Shown piece by piece: positions 29,593-41,783 of a stretch of DNA of 45,983 bases. The position numbers were made by a program, and so were the translations under genes. The notes beneath the pieces are model-generated. The model did no database searches, had not been told where the DNA came from, and worked only from the letters and a program-made list of their open reading frames with translations. Position 1 is the first letter of the stretch; the number at the start of each line of letters is the position of its first letter. The stretch is from Chloroflexota bacterium (lineage in GTDB: Bacteria > Chloroflexota > UBA6077 > SHYK01). The DNA is taken from the NCBI GenBank assembly GCA_035652535.1, contig DASRDP010000098.1:1-45983 (forward strand), written 5' to 3'.

Positions 29593-29606
29593 TGTAAAGA
29601 GACTCA

Positions 29607-29677
29607 TCGCGATGAAGCTCGCGAGGATGCGCGCCAGCGCAGCCGAACCGTCAGCCCCTGACTGATGGCTTCTACTG
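29607..29677 (+). promoter_or_regulatory. fluoride riboswitch 1 (crcB RNA aptamer)
   Basis: P1 is TCGCG (29607-29611) pairing with CGCGA (29620-29624), closing the loop ATGAAGCT. The loop's GAAGCT pairs with GGCTTC at 29667-29672, giving the pseudoknot that defines this RNA. The 3' core CTGATGGCTTCTACTG matches the known fluoride aptamer consensus (compare CUGAUGGCCUCUACUG of Thermotoga). Its last bases are also the 5' arm of a terminator, so fluoride binding should let transcription continue into the genes at 29730-30984. Confidence 0.9.
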
Positions 29678-29707
29678 TCCACGGGTGTGGTCAGTGGAGG
29701 CCTTTTT
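29667..29707 (+). terminator. riboswitch 1 expression platform (intrinsic terminator)
   Basis: GGCTTCTACTG (29667-29677) pairs over its full length with CAGTGGAGGCC (29692-29702), followed by TTTTT. The 5' arm is the aptamer's pseudoknot strand, so aptamer and terminator are mutually exclusive. Confidence 0.9.
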
Positions 29708-29729
29708 GTTGCTCCTCGAACGGTCCGCG

Positions 29730-30092
29730 ATGGTGAGTGATCCCGCCGCTGCCCGGCTAGAGTCCCTCCTCGATCGGCGGGGGCGCATCGTCTGCGCCGC
29801 AGCAGACGACTGGGGGATCCGTGCGATCATACATCTTCTCGCCGACATAGTTACTGATCCCCACATTCGGATCCGCCTTGGCGCGGCCCTTGGGTTTTGC
29901 CCAGCGCACATATGCCGCATTCACGAGGCTGCACGCACGCGGACTGGCGATCTCCGCCGCTGTGTGATGCGAGCGCGAGATTGGTCAGAGGGGATCGCCG
30001 TCCGCCTAGAGCACGCACTTCCGAAGGGTCACGCAGCGCGGGACCTCAGCGCGCGCCTAGGCCCAGTCACACCGAGGACGTTCGAGCGATGA
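29730..30092 (+). CDS. hypothetical protein, fluoride-riboswitch controlled
   Basis: A protein of about 120 residues that I do not recognise. It is mostly helical by composition, with 'GFCPAH' near residue 52 carrying its most notable Cys and His, and an Arg-rich C-terminus. The first ATG after the riboswitch terminator was taken as the start; it has no strong ribosome site, and TTG codons at 29706 or 29709 or a GTG at 29733 are possible. Its stop overlaps the next start by four bases (ATGA). Expression should be switched on by fluoride because the terminator lies 23 nt upstream. The function is unknown. Confidence 0.55.
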   Translation: MVSDPAAARLESLLDRRGRIVCAAADDWGIRAIIHLLADIVTDPHIRIRLGAALGFCPAHICRIHEAARTRTGDLRRCVMRARDWSEGIAVRLEHALPKGHAARDLSARLGPVTPRTFER

Positions 30093-30337
30093 CCTGGCAA
30101 ACGTCCCTCACCCTTGGATTGATCTTTAGCACGATCGCCGGCAGCATGGCGTTCTTGATTACCTATGACGAATACAGCCGACACCAAATGCTGTCGCGAG
30201 GCGACGTCATGAAACATTCGGTGCAGGCTGCGGCCGTCGCCATGTTCTTCTTCATCGGGCTGTCCCTGGTTGCGGGTGCATGGTTGGGCTCCATCGTCCA
30301 GAGCGCGGGGCCTCTACCTACCGGAAATGTGAAATGA
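30089..30337 (+). CDS. small membrane protein with two predicted helices
   Basis: An 82-residue protein coupled to the previous gene by an ATGA overlap. Two hydrophobic segments are visible, about residues 6-25 ('LTLGLIFSTIAGSMAFLI') and 48-70 ('AVAMFFFIGLSLVAGAWLGSIV'), joined by a short charged loop. I recognise no family. Its size and two helices fall short of a Fluc/CrcB protein (four helices, about 125 residues, with conserved Asn and Phe motifs), so it should not be called crcB. It is placed on the fluoride-controlled transcript. Confidence 0.6.
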   Translation: MTWQTSLTLGLIFSTIAGSMAFLITYDEYSRHQMLSRGDVMKHSVQAAAVAMFFFIGLSLVAGAWLGSIVQSAGPLPTGNVK

Positions 30338-30396
30338 CAAGTCTCTGCGTCGAAACCTCAAGGTAATCGAGCAGCAGGCTCAGGGAGAAGCTTCGA

Positions 30397-30984
30397 ATGG
30401 CCATAACGAACCAAACCAACGCCCAGGCCGACGTATGTCACGTGCAAATTGATCTCCCGTCCGAGGTCTACGAGCGTGCGTGCGAGCTTGCGTCGCGCGA
30501 GAGATGGCCGGAGCCCGAGGTCTGGTTAACGCTCATCAGCTACGGCCTTGCCTACCTCGAGGGGGAGCGAGAACTGAGCCGGCTCAACCGAGGAGATCCC
30601 GACCTGCGCGCCGAGGTCGAGCGCTTCCACGCCCAGGCGATGCAGCTTGACAGCGCCTACTCGGTCATGAAGTTCCGGGCCTTCGAGCTCGCAAAGCTCG
30701 TGAAGGTGCTCGAAATGAATATCGCGGGACTCCGCGGCGAAAACGAGCTGGCGAAGCATCGGCTGGCCATGTTCCGGGCGGACGAGCAACGCCTGAAAGC
30801 AGAAATGGCGGTGCTGCGCGCCCAGGTGGCTTCCATCCCAACGGAGAACGAGCGGGCCCCACGCGTTTCCGACCAGCCAGAATCATCTGCACACGGGCTG
30901 GTCTCATGGCTACGCCGTTGGCTCGGGCCCCGCTCACTCGGTGCCGCAGTCCACAGCAGGATCCAGCGGCCTGACCAGACCTGA
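30397..30984 (+). CDS. hypothetical protein with coiled coil
   Basis: A 195-residue protein of unknown family. An N-terminal part of about 60 residues ('VQIDLPSEVYERACELASRERW') resembles the start of ribbon-helix-helix or similar small DNA-binding domains. A long charged helical stretch at about residues 85-150 ('ENELAKHRLAMFRADEQRLKAEM') looks like a coiled coil. The C-terminus is Arg-rich. AGGGAGAAG lies upstream of the ATG. It is 59 nt after the membrane protein and probably on the same transcript. Confidence 0.6.
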   Translation: MAITNQTNAQADVCHVQIDLPSEVYERACELASRERWPEPEVWLTLISYGLAYLEGERELSRLNRGDPDLRAEVERFHAQAMQLDSAYSVMKFRAFELAKLVKVLEMNIAGLRGENELAKHRLAMFRADEQRLKAEMAVLRAQVASIPTENERAPRVSDQPESSAHGLVSWLRRWLGPRSLGAAVHSRIQRPDQT

Positions 30985-31137
30985 GAAAGGGACGATCCAT
31001 CGCCAACTCGGAACCCCGCCGGTCACATGCTGTTGTCAAGCGCGATGCCGATTGGTGATCGGACGCCGTTCGCCCGCGGGCAGTGTCGGTTAGCCAGCCT
31101 TGGGACGGGCTGCGGCCCACCCGATCGTTTCTGCCGA

Positions 31138-31326
31138 GTGGATCCGCGGCGAGGTCCGCTGGGGCGGCCGGAGCGCGAAATCGTGGGCTTCCTAAGGGCC
31201 GAGCGGGTTGACCTGGTCGCGCTCGCGGCTAAGCGGCATGCCGAGCCGGGACCCCGATAAGTCGGCAGGGTAGCGCGGTTCGTACTCGATCACGCGCCCC
31301 GCGCCGTGCTCCTCGCTCGTGGCTAG
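31138..31326 (+). pseudogene. remnant of a universal stress protein C-terminus
   Basis: The frame reads 'RPEREIVGFLRAERVDLVALAAKRHAEPG', then an in-frame TAA at 31258-31260, then 'VGRVARFVLDHAPRAVLLARG' and a second stop. This matches the last third of UspA proteins (compare 'STADRLVDHAPCCVLVER' at 40756-41211). The N-terminal part is gone. The surrounding stretch, 30985-31428, holds no other gene that I can support. Confidence 0.6.
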
Positions 31327-31428
31327 CTAGGATGGTGGGGCCCACATCACCACCTTCGACTTGTGCTGCTCATCAAGTTGTCCCGATGCGAAGCGTGATC
31401 GCCGCCTCAGACGAAAGGCATTGCTCGG

Positions 31429-31434
31429 TATACT
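31429..31434 (+). promoter_or_regulatory. -10 element of fluoride riboswitch 2
   Basis: TATACT lies 11 nt before the aptamer. The -35 position (about 31406) is a poor match. Confidence 0.45.
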
Positions 31435-31444
31435 CTGTTGCAGA

Positions 31445-31513
31445 GGGCGATGAAGCTCGCCCAGCCCGCCAGGGCGGACCGCCGGCTGTTTCCTGCCGGC
31501 TGATGGCTTCTAA
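31445..31513 (+). promoter_or_regulatory. fluoride riboswitch 2 (crcB RNA aptamer)
   Basis: P1 is GGGCG (31445-31449) with CGCCC, enclosing ATGAAGCT; GAAGCT can pair with GGCTTC at 31505-31510. A second stem, GCCGGC pairing with GCCGGC (31481-31486 and 31495-31500), precedes the conserved TGATGGCTTCTA. The variable arm between P1 and P2 is its own hairpin. It controls the MutS-like gene pair. Confidence 0.9.
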
Positions 31514-31547
31514 CGCGCGCGTTCTGCCGTGCGGTGGGAGCTTTTTT
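31506..31547 (+). terminator. riboswitch 2 expression platform
   Basis: GCTTCTA (31506-31512) pairs with TGGGAGC (31535-31541). An inner stem follows after one A/G mismatch, and then TTTTTT. This rules out the GTG at 31534 as the start of the next gene, because it lies inside the terminator. Confidence 0.8.
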
Positions 31548-31590
31548 GTGTGCTCGCGTCTGCAAAGAGCAAGTTCGCCGAGGCTGTCCG

Positions 31591-33126
31591 GTGACCTGCT
31601 GCAGCATCTTGTTTAAAGATGTCAACCAGGCGGCCGGGCTGGGCGAACTGGGCGCCCCTGCCTGTTTTCGCGATCTGAATCTCGACCAAGTGGTCGAGGC
31701 GATCGTCGCTGGCCGTGAGGAATACGCGCTCGAGCCGTTCTTCTCCGCACCGCTGCGGGACGTCGATGCGATCACCTACCGGCACGAAGTCTTCCGCGAC
31801 CTCGAGCGTCAGCCCGTGTGGGACAGCATCATGGCATTCGCTCGCGCCATGCTCGCCATGCGGGAGCACCTAGCCCAGGCCGACAAGCTCTACTACAAGT
31901 ACCAGAAGGAAAGCTGGTTCTTGGACGCGGTGTCGATTTACACCAAAGCCGTCACTGGCCTCCGGGCGGGGTTGACCGGGGCTCCCATCGCATCACGCGG
32001 TCTTGTCGCCTTCGAGGAATACCTCTCGGGCTATGTCGGATCCACACCATTCGCCTCGCTGGTCGGTGACGCAAACGACCTGCAGGATGAGTTCGCGCGG
32101 ATCGCCTATTGTCTCCAAATCGAGGGCGACCGTATCACTGTAAGCAGGCATGAGTCCGAAACGGACTATGCGGCAGAAGTGGAGGCCACGTTCCAGAGGT
32201 TTCGCCAAGGCGACGTCACAGACTATCGAGCCAAGTTTTCCAGCAGGCCCGAGATGAACCACGTAGAAGCCGGCATTCTAGACAGAGTCGCTCTTCTGTA
32301 CCCCGATCTCTTTCGGGCCTTGGACAGCTTCTGCGATCGCCATAGCGAGTATGTGGACCAAACCATCGCCAGATTCGATCGAGAGATTCAGTTCTATGCG
32401 GCGTACATGGAGTACATGCACCGGTTCACGGCGGCCGGCCTGGCGTTCTGCTATCCGCAGGTGTCAGATCACTCCAAGGAGGTCTCAGCCTGCGAGACCT
32501 TCGACCTCGCCTTGGCCAACCGACTCGTCCCTCAGCGCACCCTGGTGGTGTGCAACGACTTCTCCCTGCAGGATCCGGAGCGGGTGGTCGTCGTGACTGG
32601 CCCGAATCAGGGGGGCAAGTCGACCTTCGCCCGAACCTTCGGGCAACTTCATTATCTGGCCAGCCTCGGTTGTCCGGTGCCCGGCAAAAGGGCCAGGCTC
32701 TTCGTATTCGATCAGCTGTTCACGCACTTCGAGCGCGAGGAGCAGCTCGCGAGCCTGCGGGGGAAGCTCGAGGATGATCTCGTGCGAATTCACGACATTC
32801 TTACGGCCGCCACTTCGTCCAGCATCATCATTCTGAACGAGATCTTCACCTCGACCACATTCAGAGATGCGCTCTCTCTCAGCACCAAGGTCCTAGGGCG
32901 CATCACGCAGCTGGACTGCCTCTGCGTCTGTGTGACATTTCTGGACGACCTCTCCTCTCTCAGTGCGACCACCGTCAGCATGGTCAGCACCGTGGCGCCC
33001 GACGACCCGGCGGTGCGCACCTACAAGATCGTCCGGCGGCCCGCCGATGGTCGTGCGTATGCGGCTGCCCTGGCCGCGAAGTACGGTCTGAGCTACGCGC
33101 GCTTGAAGGAGCGGATCGCACGATGA
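31591..33126 (+). CDS. MutS-like ATPase 1, fluoride-riboswitch controlled
   Basis: A 511-residue protein carrying the MutS core/lever and ATPase domains but no mismatch-recognition domain. Walker A is GPNQGGKST (residues 337-345). The Walker B region reads 'IILNEIFTSTTF' (N416, E417), where classical MutS has DE. MutS-like genes are a documented member of the fluoride riboswitch regulon. The GTG at 31591 was chosen because GAGG lies 7 nt upstream and earlier codons fall in the terminator; the protein then starts with the hydrophobic strand 'CCSILF'. It overlaps the second MutS-like gene by four bases (ATGA), which suggests a heterodimer made in equal amounts. What it does under fluoride stress is not known. 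Confidence 0.88.
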   Translation: MTCCSILFKDVNQAAGLGELGAPACFRDLNLDQVVEAIVAGREEYALEPFFSAPLRDVDAITYRHEVFRDLERQPVWDSIMAFARAMLAMREHLAQADKLYYKYQKESWFLDAVSIYTKAVTGLRAGLTGAPIASRGLVAFEEYLSGYVGSTPFASLVGDANDLQDEFARIAYCLQIEGDRITVSRHESETDYAAEVEATFQRFRQGDVTDYRAKFSSRPEMNHVEAGILDRVALLYPDLFRALDSFCDRHSEYVDQTIARFDREIQFYAAYMEYMHRFTAAGLAFCYPQVSDHSKEVSACETFDLALANRLVPQRTLVVCNDFSLQDPERVVVVTGPNQGGKSTFARTFGQLHYLASLGCPVPGKRARLFVFDQLFTHFEREEQLASLRGKLEDDLVRIHDILTAATSSSIIILNEIFTSTTFRDALSLSTKVLGRITQLDCLCVCVTFLDDLSSLSATTVSMVSTVAPDDPAVRTYKIVRRPADGRAYAAALAAKYGLSYARLKERIAR

Positions 33127-34646
33127 AGGCGTTCCTGATGTATCCGAACCGAGACTTCGATCTGGGCGCGGAGCTCCCGACGCAGGAAGCGGAGCTCACG
33201 CAGGACTTGGGGCTGGATGTGCTTTTCGATGCGATGGCACTCGGCGACCCGTTCCTGCGTGATGTGGCACGGAAGGCAGTACTGTCCAGCCTCGAGGACC
33301 CGCGCGAGATCGTCTACCGGCAGCGCGTGCTTCGCGACTGCATCGAGCAGTCGACCGTTGTTCGGGAGATCTACGCCATCGCCGTCGAGGCGATCGAGCG
33401 GGAGCGGAAGATCTGGCGCAGTTTCTTGCCATCCCCCGACTCCGTGCTGCACGGCGCGACCGAGGTCCTTGATGGGTTCATGCCCCTGCTGCGAAGGCTG
33501 CGGTCCATCGCCGACGCACACGGCGGGCAGTTCCAATCCGATGGATTTGCCAGGTTCTTTCAGATGGTCCGCACGGAGCTTGACGACGAGTATCTCCAGT
33601 GCGTCGACGATCACCTGAAACGGCTCCGGTTTCGCCATGGCGTGCTGGTCAGCGCCCGGCTAGGCAAGGGGAACAAGGGTGTCGACTACGTGCTGCGGAA
33701 GCCGCGACAGTTCAAGCGGGGATGGTGGCGGTGGCTTCCCTTCCGAGGAAGTTCGCCCCTCACCCTTGTCATCGCGCCCCGCGATGAAGCGGGGACACAG
33801 GCGCTATCCGAGCTGAGGCGCCGGGGCATCAACCTCACGGCCAACGCCGTCGCCCAAGCCGGCGATCACATTCTCAGCTTCTTCGGGATGGTGCGAGCCG
33901 AGCTGGGCTTCTACATCGCCTGTCTCAATCTGCTGAGCCAGTTGATAGCGAAGGGTGAGCCGGTATGTTTTCCCGAGTCTTTGGCAGGAGAGAGACCAAT
34001 GCTCTCTGGCCGCGGGCTGTACGACGTCTGCCTCAGTCTGCGCATGCGAGGCAGGGTCGTCGGCAATGATCTGGATGCCGATGACATGCGACTGGTCGTG
34101 ATCACTGGCGCGAACCAGGGTGGGAAGTCGACGTTCCTGCGAAGCGTGGGCCTCGCCCAGCTGATGATGCAGTGCGGCATGGTTGTGGCAGCCGAGCGGT
34201 TCCGTGCCAACACCTGTGCCGGCGTCTTCACGCACTTCAAGCGCGAGGAAGATCCGACGATGGAGAGCGGGAAGCTGGACGAAGAGCTCGGCAGGATGAG
34301 CAAGATCGCCGACCGGGTGACCCCGCACGGCATGGTCCTCTTCAACGAGTCGTTCGCGGCGACGAACGAACGCGAGGGCGCCGAAATTGCCAGCGGTATC
34401 ATCCGGGCACTGTTAGATGCGAACGTCAAGGTTTTCTTCGTGACCCACTCGTTTGAACTGGCGCACTACTGGTACGGCGAGGAGCGAGACGTCGGGCGCT
34501 TCTTGCGAGCTGACCGGCTAGCCGATGGGACCCGGACCTTTCGACTGGTCGAGGGTGAGCCTTTGCCCACCAGCCACGGTGAGGACCTCTACCGGCGCAT
34601 CTTCGAGGAGGGAGAGGGCGTCGCGCCGGTGACCCTCCGCGCGTGA
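33123..34646 (+). CDS. MutS-like ATPase 2, partner of the preceding gene
   Basis: A 507-residue MutS-family protein, again without the mismatch-binding domain. The start 'MKAFLMYPNRDFDL' is characteristic of this non-canonical group. Walker A is GANQGGKST (residues 329-337). The Walker B region is 'MVLFNESFAATNEREG' (N408, E409), followed by 'FFVTHSFELAHYW' with the switch His. Both partners having NE instead of DE suggests a subfamily rule rather than a damaged site. It overlaps the first MutS-like gene by four bases and is therefore under the same fluoride control. Confidence 0.9.
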   Translation: MKAFLMYPNRDFDLGAELPTQEAELTQDLGLDVLFDAMALGDPFLRDVARKAVLSSLEDPREIVYRQRVLRDCIEQSTVVREIYAIAVEAIERERKIWRSFLPSPDSVLHGATEVLDGFMPLLRRLRSIADAHGGQFQSDGFARFFQMVRTELDDEYLQCVDDHLKRLRFRHGVLVSARLGKGNKGVDYVLRKPRQFKRGWWRWLPFRGSSPLTLVIAPRDEAGTQALSELRRRGINLTANAVAQAGDHILSFFGMVRAELGFYIACLNLLSQLIAKGEPVCFPESLAGERPMLSGRGLYDVCLSLRMRGRVVGNDLDADDMRLVVITGANQGGKSTFLRSVGLAQLMMQCGMVVAAERFRANTCAGVFTHFKREEDPTMESGKLDEELGRMSKIADRVTPHGMVLFNESFAATNEREGAEIASGIIRALLDANVKVFFVTHSFELAHYWYGEERDVGRFLRADRLADGTRTFRLVEGEPLPTSHGEDLYRRIFEEGEGVAPVTLRA

Positions 34647-34656
34647 GGCGGATTGC

Positions 34657-34685
34657 TGATGCGGGATCCGCCGCGGTGCTATGAT
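34657..34685 (+). promoter_or_regulatory. promoter of fluoride riboswitch 3
   Basis: TATGAT (34680-34685) is a good -10 box about 11 nt before P1. A weak -35 (TGATGC, 34657-34662) sits 17 nt upstream. Confidence 0.45.
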
Positions 34686-34695
34686 AGATGTGAGC

Positions 34696-34765
34696 CTCGC
34701 GATGAAGCTCGCGAGAGGTGCATCCGCACCCGAACCGTCAGTCCCCTGACTAATAGCTTCTACTG
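34696..34765 (+). promoter_or_regulatory. fluoride riboswitch 3 (crcB RNA aptamer)
   Basis: P1 is CTCGCG (34696-34701) pairing with CGCGAG, with the ATGAAGCT loop. The loop's GAAGCT pairs perfectly with AGCTTC at 34755-34760. GAACCGTCAGTCCCCTGACT is nearly identical to riboswitch 1, and the terminator arms also match. It controls the HEAT-repeat protein and the dynamin-like GTPase. Confidence 0.92.
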
Positions 34766-34794
34766 CCCACCAAATGGTCAGTGGAGGCTTTTTT
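34755..34794 (+). terminator. riboswitch 3 expression platform
   Basis: AGCTTCTACTG (34755-34765) pairs with CAGTGGAGGCT (34779-34789), followed by a run of T. The 5' arm is the aptamer's 3' strand. Confidence 0.92.
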
Positions 34795-34838
34795 GTTGCC
34801 CGGAGCCGTAGTGGGACCGAGGGACGTAGGAGGGGTCA

Positions 34839-35333
34839 ATGACGACCGTCTACTGCACAGAGTGCTGGGCTGAGCAGCTCCCAGGCGCCAAAACCTGCTG
34901 GCGGTGTGGGGCCGACGTCGCAACGGTGCCGGAGATCGACTACGTCACGAAGCTCATTCGCGCCCTTGACCATCCGGAACCCGACACCCCTGCACGCGCC
35001 GCTGCGATCCTGGGTGAGCTTCACGCCGAGCGAGCGGTCGGGCCGCTTTGTCATGTCGTCACCGAGAGGAATGAGCTTGGACTGCTCGAGTCGGCGGCGA
35101 CGGCACTCGGCCAGATCGGGCGCATTGAAGCGATACCCGCGCTCGAGCATCTCTTGGAGCGCCCAAGCTTTCTGACTGTTCGGCTCCGGGCGATTGAAGC
35201 GCTTGCTGCCATCGGTGGGCCAGGAGCATATCAGGCGCTCAGGTGGGCCGCGGACAACGATCCTTCGATGCGCGTGCGCCAAGCGGCGCAGCGGTCACTC
35301 GGGATGGCCTCACCCGCCACTGCGCAGTCGTAG
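34839..35333 (+). CDS. zinc-ribbon HEAT-repeat protein
   Basis: A 164-residue protein. The N-terminus has a zinc ribbon with C6xxC9 and C20xxC23. The rest (about residues 35-160) consists of HEAT-like repeats: 'ARAAAILGELHAERAVGPL', 'LESAATALGQIGRIEAIPAL', 'LRAIEALAAIGGPGAYQAL' and 'VRQAAQRSLGMA'. Such proteins are scaffolds that bind other proteins. AGGAGG lies upstream of the ATG. It is the first gene behind riboswitch 3 and precedes the dynamin-like GTPase by 55 nt, so it may be an adaptor for that GTPase; this is inference. Confidence 0.8.
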   Translation: MTTVYCTECWAEQLPGAKTCWRCGADVATVPEIDYVTKLIRALDHPEPDTPARAAAILGELHAERAVGPLCHVVTERNELGLLESAATALGQIGRIEAIPALEHLLERPSFLTVRLRAIEALAAIGGPGAYQALRWAADNDPSMRVRQAAQRSLGMASPATAQS

Positions 35334-35388
35334 CAGGTGCAGGGTCCTGACCATTGAGCGGCAGCCTGGTGCCCTGGACCTTCGGACC

Positions 35389-37236
35389 ATGATGGACGAA
35401 CTGCTTTCGACCGTCGCGGATGCCGCGGATCTCTTCGCGGAGATCGGCGCGGACACTGCCGCCGAGCGCGGCCGGCTGGAGCGACTCCACGAGCAGTTGG
35501 TGGAGGTTCGGCTCCACGTGGCCGTTCTCGGCCAGTTCAAGCGGGGCAAGAGCACGCTGCTCAACGCCCTGCTGGGGGAGCCCCTTCTTCCCTTCGGCGT
35601 CACACCGGTGACGTCCATCCCGACCTGGCTCTCGGGGGGACCCCAACGGCTCGTGCGGGTGATCTTCCAGGATGGGCGCCACCAAGAGTTCGCCAGCGAT
35701 GATCCCGCGGAGCTGGCCGCCACGCTGGTCGAGTTCATCTCTGAGCGGGCTAACCCCCACAACGAACGCCAGGTTGACCGGGTGGAGGTGGAGCATCCGA
35801 GCCATCTGCTCCAGCGTGGGGTGGTGTTCATCGACACTCCGGGGATCGGCTCGACATTTCAGCACAATACCCAGACGACATTTGATCTCCTCCCACAGTG
35901 TGATGCCGCTCTGTTCGTCGTCTCCGCCGATCCGCCGGTCACGGAAGTCGAGGTCGACTTTTTCCAAGCGGTCCAGCGACACGTGGCTCGCGCGTTCTAC
36001 GTCTTGAACAAAGCTGACTGTCTCGATGAGGCGGATCGTGAGGAGGTCGTCGAGTTTCTCCGCAGCACCCTGGCTACCAAAGGAGTCTTCGGGGAGCAAC
36101 TCGCCATTTGGGTCGTCTCCGCGCGGCAGGGGCTCGAGGCGCGAGTCAGCGGGAATGTCGCACTCTGGGCGGATAGCGGGATGGCCGTCGTGGAGCAGCA
36201 CCTCCTCGACTTTCTCGCCGAGGACAAGGAGCGCACGGTGCGTGCGGCGGTCTCGTCGAAGGCTGAGGCCCTCGTTATCGACGCGCTCTTTCGAGTCCGC
36301 CTGCAAGGGCGTACGCTCGATCTATCGCTGGCCGAGCTCGAGCAGCGCCTCGCGACGTTCGAGGCCAAGGTGAAGGAAGCTGAGCAGCAACGGCTCACGT
36401 TGCAGGACCTGCTCGACGGTGACCGCCGCCGGGTCATCGCTTTCATCAATGAGGAAGCGACACTGCTGAACAAACGGATTTGCGATTCGCTGGCCGGGGT
36501 CGTCGAGGGAGCAGCGACGCCGGCGGGCAATCCCGCCGAGCTGGCCAGGATCGGGAGAGCTCGCACCGCCGAAGCAATCCCGCAGCTCTTCGAGGAGCTC
36601 TTCACACAAGAGACCGCGACCATCGACCAGCGCCTCCAAGCGGTCCTCACCGGTCATCAAGAGCGTGCCGACGAGCTGATATGCTCAGTCCAACAGACGG
36701 CCGCAGAGCTGTTCGAAATCCCCTATGGAGGCGTGCCAGCGCACAACCCCCTGGAGATCCGGCATCGGCCCTACTGGACGACCCACGACTGGAGCTCACT
36801 CTTCAATCCCATTCCGATCTCGCCAAGCCTCTTGGAGAGACTGCTTCCGATGGATCGTCGCATGAGGCGCCTGAAGCATCGATTGGTGGATGAGGCGACG
36901 CGGCTCGTCTCCCGCAATGTCGAGAATCTCCGCTGGGCCGTGGTTCAAAACGTAGAGGACAGCTTCCGCAGCTTCGCTCTCGATCTCGATCAGAATTGGG
37001 AGCGCATTATCACCGCCATTCGCGGGGCGGTGGAAATGGCGCGAGGCAGACTGGCTGCTATGGACGCGGGAGCTGACCGAGAACGGGAACGGCTTCGGAC
37101 CCTGGAGCGTCAATGCCTGGAATTAGCGCACGCGCTTCGCTTAGCCAGGCCCGCGCCCGTTCAGCCCGTCATCACAGCGGCAAACGGGCCTGAGCTACCG
37201 TCTTGGGAACGGATAGACCCAGTCAAGCACACGTGA
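35389..37236 (+). CDS. dynamin-like GTPase
   Basis: A 615-residue large GTPase. The G motifs are complete: G1 GQFKRGKST (residues 48-56), G2 'TPVTSIPT' (about 72-79), G3 DTPG (149-152) and G4 NKAD (207-210). Long helical segments follow (about 290-360 and 520-590), expected to form the stalk. No clear transmembrane helix is seen, though a hydrophobic patch near 490-510 might touch membrane. Bacterial dynamin-like proteins remodel or protect membranes. The start at the first of two adjacent ATG codons is the most likely; there is no strong ribosome site. Control by a fluoride riboswitch is unusual for this family as far as I know. Confidence 0.85.
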   Translation: MMDELLSTVADAADLFAEIGADTAAERGRLERLHEQLVEVRLHVAVLGQFKRGKSTLLNALLGEPLLPFGVTPVTSIPTWLSGGPQRLVRVIFQDGRHQEFASDDPAELAATLVEFISERANPHNERQVDRVEVEHPSHLLQRGVVFIDTPGIGSTFQHNTQTTFDLLPQCDAALFVVSADPPVTEVEVDFFQAVQRHVARAFYVLNKADCLDEADREEVVEFLRSTLATKGVFGEQLAIWVVSARQGLEARVSGNVALWADSGMAVVEQHLLDFLAEDKERTVRAAVSSKAEALVIDALFRVRLQGRTLDLSLAELEQRLATFEAKVKEAEQQRLTLQDLLDGDRRRVIAFINEEATLLNKRICDSLAGVVEGAATPAGNPAELARIGRARTAEAIPQLFEELFTQETATIDQRLQAVLTGHQERADELICSVQQTAAELFEIPYGGVPAHNPLEIRHRPYWTTHDWSSLFNPIPISPSLLERLLPMDRRMRRLKHRLVDEATRLVSRNVENLRWAVVQNVEDSFRSFALDLDQNWERIITAIRGAVEMARGRLAAMDAGADRERERLRTLERQCLELAHALRLARPAPVQPVITAANGPELPSWERIDPVKHT

Positions 37237-37259
37237 CGTGCGGTTCATCTGCCAGATCT

Positions 37260-37733
37260 TCACCGTCGGAGGCTTGCCACGAGTCGGAGCGGATTGGCGA
37301 GCAAATCGAGTCCATCCAGAATTGACGGGACTACGATATCCGCAACTTGCAGCGCTCCAACCGCGAGCCCTTCGCCGCCGAGAATGCCAATCCCGAGCGC
37401 GGCCTCTTGGAGCATTGCAGCGTCATTGGCTCCATTCCCCACCGCCACGACGCTCTTCGTGCCAAGACCTCGAATGAATGCCGCCTTCCGCTCGGGGGCT
37501 GAACCATCGGCAGAAATGCGGACGGCGTTCGCTTGGAGCTGAGCGGCCACTACTTCGAGCTGACCGTAGGTATCTCCTGAAAGGAGGTGTGGTTCGAGGA
37601 GGCCACGGATGAGCCCGATGCGATCAATAACCCCGGGTAAGAGCGATCCATCCAGAGCAACGGTACCGTTAACGTCGAGCACGAGGTGCTCGAGATGCAG
37701 ACATTTCCATCCCGGAATGTCGATCTCTAACAT
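37260..37733 (-). CDS. HAD-family hydrolase of the soluble P-type ATPase group
   Basis: A 157-residue minimal HAD protein. The nucleophile motif is D20-V-N-G-T: the second Asp of ordinary phosphatases (DxDGT) is Asn, as in the soluble P-type-ATPase-like group. The conserved Lys lies in '[11 protein letters not shown]', and the C-terminal metal motif is '[11 protein letters not shown]'. AAAGG lies 7 nt before the ATG. It is convergent with the dynamin-like gene and is the only gene on the minus strand in this part of the island. I saw no riboswitch on its upstream side. The substrate is unknown. Confidence 0.82.
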
Positions 37734-37789
37734 GGCAACGCCTTTGCTGTGCCTCGGTGTGGCGCGAAGTCTGGGTCGTGGGTGCAGAG

Positions 37790-37936
37790 AGCGTGGCGGT
37801 CACCGCTCGCATCTCACGCATTCCCGGTCCGCCCTTCGGACCTTCGTAGGGGATGATTATGACATCCCCCGCCTCAATGCGGCGCTCCATTGCGGCGTTC
37901 AGCGCCGACTCCTCATCATCGCACCCGCGCGGCGCC
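37790..37936 (-). pseudogene. ilvD: fragment of dihydroxy-acid dehydratase (ilvD)
   Basis: On the minus strand, '[19 protein letters not shown]' runs into the unmistakable IlvD signature '[18 protein letters not shown]' and 'AVTATL'. A one-base shift separates this from 'GAARV' just upstream, matching the IlvD 'GPARVF' segment. The rest of the 550-residue enzyme is missing, so this is a small remnant with a frameshift. The remaining sequence between 37734 and 38100 holds only the tiny frame at 37986 and the riboswitch promoter. Confidence 0.75.
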
Positions 37937-37985
37937 GTCCCGAGCTATCCACGCGGAGCGTGAGCTCGATCTTACGGAGCCATAT

Positions 37986-38069
37986 GTGAGTCCCGTGCGC
38001 TGGGCCGCGATGCTCATGGGCGGCGGCGTGATCGTCTTCGTCGTCGGAGCGACGCTCCGTATCGCGTAA
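37986..38069 (+). CDS. possible 27-residue single-helix membrane peptide
   Basis: A GTG-started frame, preceded by GGAG 6 nt upstream, encodes one hydrophobic segment ('MLMGGGVIVFVVGATLRIA'). The same frame is open upstream ('ERELDLTEPY'), so it could instead be the tail of a lost membrane protein. Nothing else supports it. Confidence 0.25.
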   Translation: MSPVRWAAMLMGGGVIVFVVGATLRIA

Positions 38070-38102
38070 GGGCCGATCCGATCGCGGTGCAGCCCATGTG
38101 CC

Positions 38103-38108
38103 TATAAT
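38103..38108 (+). promoter_or_regulatory. -10 element of fluoride riboswitch 4
   Basis: TATAAT, a perfect -10 consensus, lies 5 nt before the aptamer. No good -35 is seen. Confidence 0.5.
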
Positions 38109-38113
38109 GACAT

Positions 38114-38167
38114 GAGCGATGAAGCTCGCTCGGCCGCGGGCCGAAGTGCCGCTACTATGGGGCTGAT

Positions 38168-38178
<11 letters not shown>
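38114..38178 (+). promoter_or_regulatory. fluoride riboswitch 4 (crcB RNA aptamer)
   Basis: P1 is GAGCG (38114-38118) pairing with CGCTC (38127-38131), enclosing ATGAAGCT. GAAGCT pairs perfectly with AGCTTC at 38168-38173. The 3' core CTGATAGCTTCTACTG is conserved. It controls the Nudix remnant and the MFS transporter gene. Confidence 0.92.
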
Positions 38179-38505
<327 letters not shown>

Positions 38506-38557
38506 GGAGGCTAGGTGATTCGAGGGAGTCAAGCTAAGTAGGCGAAGGAGGCAGGGC

Positions 38558-39784
38558 GTGGAGATCTCCACTGATCAGGCCGTCACTGAAAACTACACCG
38601 GGTACAGCACGGTGAGGCGACGAGCGATCAAGTTCATCGTGCTCGTTGGCATCATGAGCTTCTTTGCTGACTTCACGTACGAGGGGTCCCGCGGCATCAT
38701 TGGGCCCTATCTTGGCCTACTGGGGGCCGGCGCCACTGCCATTGCAATCATTACCGGCTTCGGCGAGCTCCTCGGGTATGGGATTCGCCTGTTCTCGGGG
38801 AGGGCGGCGGATCGCACCGGCCAGTTCTGGCCCATCACGATTTTCGGCTACGTGATCCAGATGGCGGCGGTGCCCCTGCTCGCCCTGGCCCCCAATTGGC
38901 AGATTGCGGCCCTGCTCGTCATCCAGGAGCGCGTCGGAAAGGCCATACGGAATCCTCCACGCGACGTCATGCTCTCCCACGCAGGGAAGGAGATCGGCTA
39001 TGGGTGGGCCTTCGGCGTCCACGAGGCCCTCGATCAGTTTGGCGCCCTCTTCGGCCCCCTGGCCGTCGCGCTCGTCCTAGCGGCACGTGGCGAGTACCGG
39101 GTTGCCTTCGCGTCGCTTGGCATCTCGGCCGTCGTGATGCTGAGCCTCCTCGTTGGAGCCCGGCTCTCCTATCCGCGCCCGGAGGAGATGGACAGCTCGC
39201 CTCTCGAGGTTAACGCGCAGGGGCTCCCCCGGGTGTTTTGGGTCTACCTCGCGGGGGCGGTGCTCGTCGCGGTGGGATTCGCGGACTTCCCCTTCATGGC
39301 CTACCACCTCGAACGGACAAGCGACATCTCCGACAGTTGGCTACCGGCCTTTTACGCCCTGGCGATGGGGATTAGTGGAACGGGCTCCATCATTTTTGGA
39401 AAGCTGTTCGACAAATTCGGGATCTGGGTATTGATTCCGCTGACGTTGGTCTCGGCCCTTTTCGCGCCCCTCGTGTTCTTCGGCGGCATCTGTCTGGGTC
39501 TTCTCGGGATCGCGCTCTGGGGCCTGGGCATGGGTGTCCACGAATCGATCGTGCCCGCGGCTGTGGCCCACATGGCGCCGCGTCAGCGCCGCGCCTCCGC
39601 GTACGGCCTCTTTACCTCGGGCTACGGGGTCTTCTGGTTTCTCGGAAGTGTCGTGCTGGGCCTCCTCTATAACGTGTCGCTCATGGGACTCGTCACCTTC
39701 TCAGTCGTGGCAGAACTGGCGGCGATCCCGCTCTTTATCGCCGTCGCGCGCCAGGGTGGAGAAGTGGGGGATGGCACGTCCTAG
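38558..39784 (+). CDS. MFS transporter, fluoride-riboswitch controlled
   Basis: A 408-residue major facilitator with a hydrophobicity pattern compatible with 12 helices. The first helices read 'IKFIVLVGIMSFFADFTYEGSRGIIGPYL'. The loop between helices 2 and 3 contains 'SGRAADRTGQ', the usual MFS signature region. 'RVGKAIRNPPRD' lies in the fourth-to-fifth helix region and is seen in a subgroup of uncharacterised MFS proteins. The GTG start has AAGGAGG upstream. It is the only transporter gene in the riboswitch island, so fluoride or a related ion or metabolite is a candidate substrate; this is inference, since known fluoride exporters are CrcB/Fluc and CLC-F. Confidence 0.85.
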   Translation: MEISTDQAVTENYTGYSTVRRRAIKFIVLVGIMSFFADFTYEGSRGIIGPYLGLLGAGATAIAIITGFGELLGYGIRLFSGRAADRTGQFWPITIFGYVIQMAAVPLLALAPNWQIAALLVIQERVGKAIRNPPRDVMLSHAGKEIGYGWAFGVHEALDQFGALFGPLAVALVLAARGEYRVAFASLGISAVVMLSLLVGARLSYPRPEEMDSSPLEVNAQGLPRVFWVYLAGAVLVAVGFADFPFMAYHLERTSDISDSWLPAFYALAMGISGTGSIIFGKLFDKFGIWVLIPLTLVSALFAPLVFFGGICLGLLGIALWGLGMGVHESIVPAAVAHMAPRQRRASAYGLFTSGYGVFWFLGSVVLGLLYNVSLMGLVTFSVVAELAAIPLFIAVARQGGEVGDGTS

Positions 39785-39894
39785 ACGGCCCGGAAGCGGT
39801 GGAAGGTATTGAGGTCATCATAGAGATCCCACGTGGAAGTCGCAACAAGTACGAGTACGACGCTGATCAAGCACCTCGAGAGCATCGCCGATGA
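39785..39894 (+). pseudogene. ppa: N-terminal fragment of inorganic pyrophosphatase (ppa)
   Basis: Directly after the MFS stop, the frame reads 'GIEVIIEIPRGSRNKYEYD', the hallmark N-terminus of family I inorganic pyrophosphatase, then departs from the family after about 9863 of this contig block (near 39863) and stops at 39892. About 85% of the enzyme is missing. Pyrophosphatase is inhibited by fluoride and is a known member of fluoride riboswitch regulons, so a once-intact gene would fit here. Confidence 0.75.
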
Positions 39895-40006
39895 AGCAAT
39901 CCCGGGTCTCGACATCGGCACCGGCGAGGTATATGTGTACCAGGTGGATACCGAGGGGCGGATCATCTCAAAGGAGATCCGCGTTGCCAATCCGAACCTC
40001 GTCTGA
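39833..40006 (+). CDS. 57-codon unknown frame, possibly a gene tail joined to the ppa fragment
   Basis: A GTG-started frame reads through 'LIKHLESIADEAIPGLDIG' and 'EVYVYQVDTEGRIISKEI' to a stop. The composition is protein-like and unlike a shadow frame, but I recognise no family. Its first codons overlap the ppa remnant in another frame, so it is probably the 3' end of a second gene joined by deletion rather than a true start. Confidence 0.3.
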   Translation: MEVATSTSTTLIKHLESIADEAIPGLDIGTGEVYVYQVDTEGRIISKEIRVANPNLV

Positions 40007-40069
40007 GCGGCAGTGCCGCCGCGCGGTTCTACGCCCCGGCGTGCCCCGGGGACGTAATCGCGCAGTTCG

Positions 40070-40099
40070 TTGATCATTCGACTCGCTCGCTGCTATGAT
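40070..40099 (+). promoter_or_regulatory. promoter of fluoride riboswitch 5
   Basis: TTGATC (40070-40075) and TATGAT (40094-40099) are 18 nt apart, ending 7 nt before the aptamer P1. Confidence 0.6.
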
Positions 40100-40106
40100 G
40101 TCGTTG

Positions 40107-40171
40107 CCGCGATGAAGTCCGCGGGCTCCCATCTGGGAGCGAACTGGCGCGCCGCGTCTGATGGCTTCTGC
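40107..40171 (+). promoter_or_regulatory. fluoride riboswitch 5 (crcB RNA aptamer, slightly divergent)
   Basis: P1 is CCGCG (40107-40111) pairing with CGCGG (40120-40124), enclosing ATGAAGTC. GAAGTC pairs with GGCTTC (40163-40168) through a G-U pair. An extra hairpin GGCTCC/GGGAGC lies between P1 and P2. The 3' end reads CTGATGGCTTCTGC, where the others have CTAC. The fold is kept although the sequence differs. It controls three universal stress protein genes. Confidence 0.85.
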
Positions 40172-40197
40172 CTGGTACCTGGGCAGGGGCCTTTTTT
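40163..40197 (+). terminator. riboswitch 5 expression platform
   Basis: GGCTTCTGCC (40163-40172) pairs with GGCAGGGGCC (40182-40191), followed by TTTTTT. Confidence 0.9.
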
Positions 40198-40322
40198 CAT
40201 GCTCAGTTACTGCCTGGGAGGAACGAGTCCGGCTGAGCGTAGCGCGGTCGTTCGAAGCGCCGCGGGTTTCTGCTGGATAACGCTGAGGAATAACCAGCAA
40301 CAACGCGAGTGAGGACGAATCG

Positions 40323-40724
40323 GTGGCATACCGAAACATCGTGGTCGCAGTTCATGGCACACCGGCAAGCGACGTCGCTCTGCATCGGGCCATCGGCATC
40401 GCCCGCGCCGAACATGCCGAGCTGACCGTGCTCGGCGTTGACGAGCCATTACCCCCCTTCGCGCCTGGCGGTGAGGGCGGCAGGCGGAACGGGCAGCTCC
40501 ACGCGGCCGTGGAGGCCGCGGTCGGTACCGCGCGCCGCTCGGGCGTGGAGGTGCAAGGGCAGGTGCTGAGCGGCTATCCGGCGGAAGCGATCGTCCAGTA
40601 CTGTGAGACGAACGACTGTGACCTGTTGGTCGTCGGTGCCGGGAACCAGCGCCCGGGACCAGTCGGCCGGACCGCAGACAAGGTGGTCGGCCTCGCTCCC
40701 TGCGGAGTGCTCGTGGCCCGGTAG
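40323..40724 (+). CDS. universal stress protein (UspA family) 1
   Basis: A 133-residue single-domain UspA protein with a GTG start 126 nt after the riboswitch terminator. The N-terminal strand 'YRNIVVAVHGTPASDVALHRAI' and the C-terminal 'ADKVVGLAPCGVLVAR' are typical. The ATP-binding signature G-2x-G-9x-G(S/T) is degraded ('VVGAGNQRPGPVGRT'), so nucleotide binding is doubtful. It is the first of three adjacent UspA genes under riboswitch 5. UspA genes are known members of fluoride riboswitch regulons. Confidence 0.88.
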   Translation: MAYRNIVVAVHGTPASDVALHRAIGIARAEHAELTVLGVDEPLPPFAPGGEGGRRNGQLHAAVEAAVGTARRSGVEVQGQVLSGYPAEAIVQYCETNDCDLLVVGAGNQRPGPVGRTADKVVGLAPCGVLVAR

Positions 40725-40755
40725 GCCCGACGCGTGGCCACCAAAGGAGGTGGCA

Positions 40756-41211
40756 GTGTTCCGAAAGATATTGGTCGGACTCGATGGATCAGACACATCC
40801 TGGGCAGCCTTCCATCGAGCGCTCGACATCGCCCAGGCACATGGCGCCGAGCTGTGGGTGCTGTCCGTTGAGGACCACCTTCCCCATTTTCCGGGGACCA
40901 TCGACGAGGTCCAGGAGGAGGAGGAACGGGAGAACAGCTACTTCCGCGAGGTCCAGCAGACTGCCCGCGAGGCAGCCGCGCAGCAAGGAGTTGCCTTGCG
41001 GACGCGAACAGTGACCGGCCATGCCGCCGACCGGCTTATCGAGTTCGCCCGCGATGCCGCCGTCGACTTGATCGTCGTGGGGCACCGCGGGCATGCCAAT
41101 CCCTGGCACCATTTGATCGGCAGCACCGCCGACCGGCTCGTCGACCACGCCCCTTGCTGCGTCCTGGTCGAGCGACTGCCGGCGGAAGTCACCACCGCCA
41201 GAGGCTCGTAG
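40756..41211 (+). CDS. universal stress protein (UspA family) 2
   Basis: A 151-residue UspA protein. The GTG start has AGGAGG 5 nt upstream and gives the typical 'FRKILVGLDGSDTSWAAFHRAL'. The ATP-binding signature is complete: 'GHRGHANPWHHLIGST', which fits G-2x-G-9x-G(S/T). A Glu-rich loop follows residue 50. It is 31 nt after the first UspA gene. Confidence 0.9.
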   Translation: MFRKILVGLDGSDTSWAAFHRALDIAQAHGAELWVLSVEDHLPHFPGTIDEVQEEEERENSYFREVQQTAREAAAQQGVALRTRTVTGHAADRLIEFARDAAVDLIVVGHRGHANPWHHLIGSTADRLVDHAPCCVLVERLPAEVTTARGS

Positions 41212-41342
41212 CTTTGGGGACGCACGGTTCCTCCGAGTCGAAAGCTTCGTGAGTAGCCGACAGTGACTTCGTCGCGAGAGTCGCACGGGACTTCTTTCGA
41301 CTGCGCATAACGTCGGGATGAACCTTCACGCGGAGGTGGGGC

Positions 41343-41783
41343 GTGTTTCACCGAGTTCTCGTGGGATTCGACGGCTCACCCAGTGGGTGGTGCGCCCTAC
41401 GCCACGGCATCCAGGTGGCGAAAGAGGACGGTGCCGACCTCTGGGCCTTGTCGGTCGAGGAGCCACTCCCGCACTACGCCTCCGCTGCCAACAAGGTGCA
41501 GGCTGAAGGGTCCGCAGTGGCAGCGTACTTTGAGCGACTCCAGGCGGAGGCGCAACGGGAGGCAGAGTCACATGCGGTCGCGCTGCAGACCGAGACCGTG
41601 CATGGTCACGCGGCACAGGCAATTGTGGACTTCGCCAGCCAGATTCGTGCCGACCTCATCATCGTCGGCCAGCACGGCCACCGGGGGGTGATGAAGCGCT
41701 TGCTCGGTAGCACCAGCGACCGGGTCGTCGACATCGCACCATGCTCGGTCCTCGTCGTCCGGAGCGACGACACCACTCCGTAG
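41343..41783 (+). CDS. universal stress protein (UspA family) 3
   Basis: A 146-residue UspA protein, most similar to the second copy ('FHRVLVGFDGSPSGWCALRHGI'; ATP signature 'GQHGHRGVMKRLLGST'). The GTG start has GGAGG 6 nt upstream. It lies 131 nt after the second copy, and whether it is on the same transcript is unclear, as no terminator was found between them. The two complete copies probably arose by tandem duplication. Confidence 0.9.
   Translation: MFHRVLVGFDGSPSGWCALRHGIQVAKEDGADLWALSVEEPLPHYASAANKVQAEGSAVAAYFERLQAEAQREAESHAVALQTETVHGHAAQAIVDFASQIRADLIIVGQHGHRGVMKRLLGSTSDRVVDIAPCSVLVVRSDDTTP

Follow-up and report, generated by a model that had tools for sequence, protein, structure and literature searches.

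The window analysed here, a stretch of 45,983 nucleotides, is the entire contig C98 of a 4.45-Mb Chloroflexota genome (98.3% complete, 4.56% contaminated), and it raises the question of what an MFS transporter does behind a fluoride riboswitch. In published accounts the fluoride regulon includes mutS, formate hydrogen lyase and genes for K+ or Cl- transport (PMC2864571), together with exporters, Na+/H+ antiporters (which rank second among the riboswitch classes), pyrophosphatase, HAD and enolase (PMC11139923), and the latter review names only two types of fluoride exporter. The loci described below resemble this regulon (crcB motif, RF01734) in having the same aptamer, an overlapping terminator and genes for mutS, Na+/H+ antiporter, enolase, pyrophosphatase and FHL, but differ in the MFS protein, which neither paper names (PMC2864571, PMC11139923). 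A literature search found no paper joining MFS proteins to fluoride riboswitches, the survey of Baker et al. 2012, which could list one, lying outside that search.

Five fluoride riboswitches occur within 12 kb on one strand of the window (Table 1), all of them retaining the GAAGC/T loop and the GCTTC pseudoknot strand and each being followed by a terminator. The initial annotation had described the MFS gene as the sole transporter gene of the island, located behind the riboswitch with the strongest terminator. A Pfam search between 29.6 and 42 kb indeed revealed no other transporter gene, and the gene does sit behind a fluoride riboswitch with an overlapping terminator; the strongest terminator, however, belongs to the switch at 29599 (-26.6 kcal/mol by folding, vs -22.2 kcal/mol at the MFS switch and -20.2, -19.4 and -21.4 kcal/mol at the others).

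Table 1. Features of the fluoride island, in window coordinates.
Feature	Position	Strand	Evidence and remarks
Fluoride riboswitch 1	29599..29681	+	RF01734 34.8 bits, above Rfam cut-off; strongest terminator
Fluoride riboswitch 2, ahead of MutS-V pair	31437..31519	+	RF01734 31.8 bits
MutS domain V ATPase, pair member 1	31534..33126	+	PF00488 E 7e-21
MutS domain V ATPase, pair member 2	33123..34646	+	PF00488 E 2e-18
Fluoride riboswitch 3	34689..34769	+	RF01734 27.5 bits
HEAT-repeat protein	34839..35333	+	PF13646 E 3e-24
Dynamin-like GTPase	35389..37236	+	PF00350 E 2e-26
HAD-type hydrolase, strand opposite to MFS	37260..37733	-	PF00702 E 2e-6; cluster in 10 MFS loci
Fluoride riboswitch aptamer (MFS switch)	38106..38182	+	RF01734 28.3 bits, E 6e-4; pseudoknot strands present
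Intrinsic terminator of MFS switch	38168..38210	+	13-bp stem, then T6; -22.2 kcal/mol, z -4.4
Truncated Nudix hydrolase ORF	38245..38505	+	PF00293 E 7e-8; first ~50 residues of domain
MFS transporter, 408 aa	38558..39784	+	GTG start, AGGAGG-like site upstream; PF07690; AF2
Fluoride riboswitch 5, 3' of MFS, 5' of universal stress proteins	40099..40177	+	RF01734 25.8 bits
Universal stress protein	40323..40724	+	PF00582
Universal stress protein, domain part of ORF 40603-41211	40756..41211	+	PF00582
Universal stress protein	41343..41783	+	PF00582

The gene set at 29599-41783 (MutS-V pair, HEAT-repeat protein, dynamin-like GTPase, HAD hydrolase, MFS protein and universal stress proteins, USPs) recurs in other phyla; it is one form of a widespread fluoride island and looks like a mobile fluoride-resistance module. 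The two MutS-V proteins (530 and 507 aa) have domain V as their sole recognised domain, and similar pairs are found in about 32 MFS loci. What has been listed as ‘mutS’ in the fluoride regulon may be a two-subunit MutS-V ATPase and not the mismatch-repair MutS. To our knowledge, dynamin-like proteins have not been connected with fluoride before.

The aptamer ahead of the MFS gene scores below the Rfam gathering score for RF01734, which is 34, and departs from the model at the AACCG segment, while a clade-specific covariance model (R1), which includes the sequence of this very aptamer, gives 52.4 bits. Downstream of it, AGCTTCTACTGCC pairs with GGCAGTAGAAGCT, followed by TTTTTT, and the resulting terminator stem makes use of AGCTTC, which is the 3' pseudoknot strand of the aptamer. 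As terminator and pseudoknot need the same strand, the two states are mutually exclusive, and the element is by its anatomy a predicted fluoride ON switch. The MFS gene starts 376 bp downstream of the riboswitch and, as the Nudix ORF lying between them is truncated, it is the first intact gene after the switch; Nudix genes (cluster c49) are also found in other fluoride islands. The gene thus has an RF01734 aptamer 5' of it on the same strand with an overlapping expression platform, the arrangement of a riboswitch-controlled gene, with a sub-gathering score and an intervening Nudix remnant.

The MFS ORF is intact and its product matches the PF07690 (MFS_1) profile over residues 33-363 with 89.7 bits (cut-off 33.4), which is its sole Pfam match. 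It is neither a CrcB/Fluc protein (no match to PF02537) nor a CLC-F protein (no match to PF00654). None of the NCBIfam families, including the named H+ antiporter families, is matched above the curated cut-off, and a relative of the protein reaches only 19.5 bits against TIGR00900, where the cut-off is 319.6. A profile search of solved structures gave no sequence match to any solved protein. The structure predicted by AF2 is a confident 12-helix MFS-like fold (pLDDT 89.6), for which every Foldseek match is an MFS protein, the best solved ones being the oxalate:formate antiporter OxlT, the monocarboxylate transporter 6g9x (SfMCT/MCT1) and NorA (TM 0.70-0.76). These have the MFS fold in common with the modelled protein but are only 15-18% identical to it, a degree of similarity that is common to many MFS proteins, and as judged from the model such matches leave the cargo unspecified.

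Orthologues with 34-68% identity were found in 66 of 400 genomes of the phylum, clearly apart from paralogues at 25-34%. They form a single clade separate from the paralogues (FastTree, SH 100), in a tree whose long outgroup branches make fine placements unsure. Several positions are fixed in the orthologues and differ in the paralogues, among them R45 (TM1), E156 (TM5), H250 (TM7), W91 and W321, with Arg replacing both E156 and H250 in the paralogues, whereas D38, E42, D159 and E329 are shared or nearly shared between the two groups. Acidic and basic residues are buried within the helices.

The initial annotation had proposed a fluoride-responsive exporter, an idea that would lose ground if homologues of the protein had no link to fluoride riboswitches. 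We compared 60 orthologue loci with 20 paralogue loci as control, using flanks of up to 7 kb. In the unselected phylum sample, R1 detected a switch within this distance in 27 of 59 scorable orthologue loci (26 of 58 excluding the window) and in none of 19 paralogue loci (Fisher p 1.5e-4), the control being small and its twentieth locus (L168) having been left out because it was chosen in the knowledge that it had a switch. As some of the switches used to build R1 lie near MFS genes, matches to Rfam's RF01734 provide an independent check, and Rfam's own model gives the same picture free of this selection. The association is also seen for whole genomes, with a riboswitch in 41 of the 66 genomes that encode the MFS protein and in 87 of the 334 others (odds ratio 4.7, p 4e-8).

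Scanning named genomes of bacteria and archaea added 80 MFS loci (five duplicates were removed overall), in which R1 found 118 switches. With all loci pooled, 71 of 134 scorable orthologue loci have a switch within 7 kb. The local fluoride link is missing in 47 of the 134, especially in a clade of seven loci with a conserved non-fluoride context. Switch-linked loci are spread over the whole MFS tree, including its early branches, and in at least 19 orthologue loci from several phyla the MFS gene is the first gene after the switch, examples being Dyella, Pollutimonas (with a weak switch), Acidobacteria MAGs and several Chloroflexota. In the left-out paralogue locus, a different MFS protein of about 25% identity, belonging to the paralogue clade, is encoded directly after a fluoride riboswitch (L168:4207-5566, G315 C58); the fluoride regulon may have acquired a further type of MFS protein.

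Because of the conserved linkage to switches, we consider that the MFS protein takes part in the fluoride response, very probably as an induced transporter of the regulon. Judged by its sequences and their genomic context, the family is a distinct, uncharacterised one that belongs to the fluoride-stress regulon.

A separate riboswitch-controlled crcB elsewhere in the genome would weaken the case for an alternative exporter. No crcB was found in the source genome with the PF02537 profile, which detects the gene in 10 of 14 control genomes and in 190 of the 400 phylum genomes, a gap in the 98.3% complete assembly being possible; a crcB overlooked by the Pfam query is not indicated, as a second search of the genome with the CrcB of a relative was also empty. 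There is a single CLC, an ORF of 735 aa that is ClcB-like (NCBIfam), carries the motifs GSGGPFGAEGP and GHGIP, and scores 71 bits against ClcA-type structures but 29 bits against the solved CLC-F. That it is a hidden CLC-F was ruled out by the lack of the GREGT/GNNL signature and by this ranking of PDB structures; a plasmid-borne CLC from a fluoride island, in contrast, has both the GREGT and the GNNL motif. Neither known type of fluoride exporter was thus detected in the source genome by these sequence searches, subject to assembly gaps. A sixth fluoride riboswitch precedes a CPA2-type cation/proton antiporter on a different contig, in a locus (L007:6970-9742, G000 C157) that also has a second permease-like ORF. 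Two further matches to the aptamer model are weak (G000 C37:1610-1694, minus strand, 22.2 bits; C84:69637-69691, plus strand, 18.5 bits).

The ‘responsive’ half of the original proposal is well supported, by the linkage and by the lack of a detected crcB, whereas its ‘exporter’ half, with fluoride as the substrate, is more tentative. CrcB/Fluc channels (PF02537) are also fluoride-riboswitch-linked membrane proteins, often encoded in the same island or operon as the MFS protein, but are built from channel subunits of ~130 aa with no sequence similarity to it and with a fold unrelated to the 12-helix MFS fold. CLC-F fluoride/proton antiporters would offer a model for riboswitch-controlled, proton-coupled export of fluoride, but belong to another superfamily. 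BenE-I of Pseudomonas putida is a further case of a transporter from another family that aids fluoride tolerance without CrcB; it is a benzoate transporter unrelated to MFS, and its effect was revealed by mutation, not through riboswitch control (PMC13104614).

The company kept by the MFS gene was surveyed in 136 loci by ORF clustering, with genes called by ORF and similarity. Recurring neighbours are USP/DUF190 proteins (32 loci; the ‘USP’ cluster also includes DUF190 proteins), MutS-V pairs (32), the dynamin-like GTPase (24, behind a riboswitch in 8 cases), enolase (23), CrcB (18), phosphoglycerate mutase (13), an NADHdh-type FHL-like subunit (13), inorganic pyrophosphatase (11), Na+/H+ exchanger (11) and HAD proteins (10). 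The order riboswitch-crcB-DUF190-MFS or crcB-MFS occurs in several genomes, Chloroflexota among them (L111, L115). The order crcB-DUF190-MFS is annotated on plasmid pCHRO.01 of Chroococcidiopsis thermalis, with a switch upstream, and on a plasmid of Aquicella lusitana, where the R1 search found no switch, while a plasmid of Rubrobacter radiotolerans has the order switch-MutS-V-MutS-V-MFS. On a conjugative plasmid of Burkholderia cenocepacia (NZ_CP073707.1, L271), CrcB, a GREGT-type CLC-F and the MFS protein are encoded in one island, which also has a phosphoglycerate-mutase-like protein, MutS-V genes and fluoride riboswitches.

DUF190 genes (PF02641) are positioned between crcB and MFS at L111:8180-8527, L272:8589-8930 and L275:8635-8937, and DUF190 is fused to CBS domains at L095:9972-11246; the protein is a candidate regulator or partner of CrcB. 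Genes for chromate-sensor-like ChrB_N proteins adjoin the MFS gene in some fluoride islands (L169:8369-10202, L217:4864-8170, L190:6313-8185), twice beside two MFS copies. A role of the MFS protein in chromate handling was considered on this account and rejected, as only 6 loci are concerned, mostly inside fluoride islands, and a literature search gave nothing relevant.

The MFS protein does not appear to be a general replacement for absent exporters. CrcB is commoner in genomes that have it (42 of 66 vs 148 of 334 others, p 0.005), and this co-occurrence, together with the plasmid island holding CrcB, CLC-F and MFS, makes a simple stand-in unlikely. Six switch-bearing relatives have the MFS protein without CrcB or any CLC (G073, G190, G208, G315, G368 and G377); G208 is 98% complete on one contig, G368 is 82% complete, and the orthologues of G315 and G190 are more distant.

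Of several possible explanations, we favour, tentatively, one in which the protein directly exports fluoride. A rise in fluoride would cause the aptamer to fold with its pseudoknot, the overlapping terminator could then not form, and the MFS gene would be transcribed along with the rest of the island. In the membrane the protein would act as a secondary transporter, probably proton-coupled because of the invariant acidic residues in TM1, TM5 and TM10, and would expel something harmful arising under fluoride, the single most likely cargo being fluoride itself or a fluoride-containing small anion. This choice of cargo is favoured by the constant company of exporters and switches, by the six relatives that lack CrcB and CLC, and by the buried charged residues. 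It is disfavoured by the co-occurrence with CrcB, by the island in which all three proteins are found together, and by the nearest folds, which are those of oxalate and monocarboxylate transporters. Fluoride as the cargo is ranked first, with efflux of a compound that accumulates on inhibition of enolase almost as likely.

In that second explanation, which we regard as somewhat doubtful, the exported substance would be a metabolite accumulating as fluoride inhibits enolase and phosphoryl-transfer enzymes, such as phosphoglycerates or small organic acids (e.g. formate, oxalate, lactate). Enolase, phosphoglycerate mutase and pyrophosphatase are indeed among the recurring neighbours, OxlT and 6g9x are among the closest folds, and co-occurrence with CrcB in place of mutual exclusion would fit a non-redundant task; the fold likeness, however, says little on cargo at such low identity, and no metabolite-specific enzyme is constant next to the MFS gene. 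Less probable is that the protein serves pH or cation homeostasis during fluoride stress, as for the riboswitch-linked Na+/H+ antiporters. Na+/H+ exchangers are frequent neighbours, and the invariant acidic residues D38, E42, E156, D159 and E329 could support cation/proton exchange, but islands with the MFS gene often already hold such an exchanger, and the protein resembles none of the named H+ antiporter families above cut-off.

Export of a fluorinated organic compound, as the initial annotation had suggested, or of a metal-fluoride complex, in place of free fluoride, is improbable: the fold is like that of drug-efflux proteins, with NorA among the best matches, but the islands have no constant dehalogenase or organofluorine pathway, phosphatase activity is likelier for the HAD neighbours (PMC11139923), and carriers of the gene span many habitats and phyla. 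It is most improbable of all that the gene is a passenger with an unrelated role which travels with a mobile fluoride island, for although the island looks horizontally spread, the gene being missing from the four sampled genomes of the same family and its nearest relatives being in other phyla, a passenger would not explain why MFS itself is the first gene after the switch in at least 19 loci and why, throughout the tree, it turns up again in islands and operons of different composition.

Returning to direct fluoride export, the family might, if this tentative assignment is right, constitute a third kind of dedicated fluoride exporter, unrelated in structure to the other two: proton-coupled MFS proteins that fluoride riboswitches control and that are distributed across bacterial phyla (possibly also archaea) on mobile fluoride islands. 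What appears to be new here is that a transporter of the fluoride response, with predicted riboswitch control, comes from a superfamily to which PMC2864571 and PMC11139923 do not assign this role. The data provide a short list of testable MFS genes, some of them from named cultured organisms or complete plasmids, and the protein is a candidate part for engineering fluoride tolerance into organofluorine-degrading strains. A conserved, unnamed MFS family behind fluoride riboswitches would be either a third exporter or a pointer to the metabolite or ion that is expelled when fluoride blocks glycolysis, and either answer would be new.
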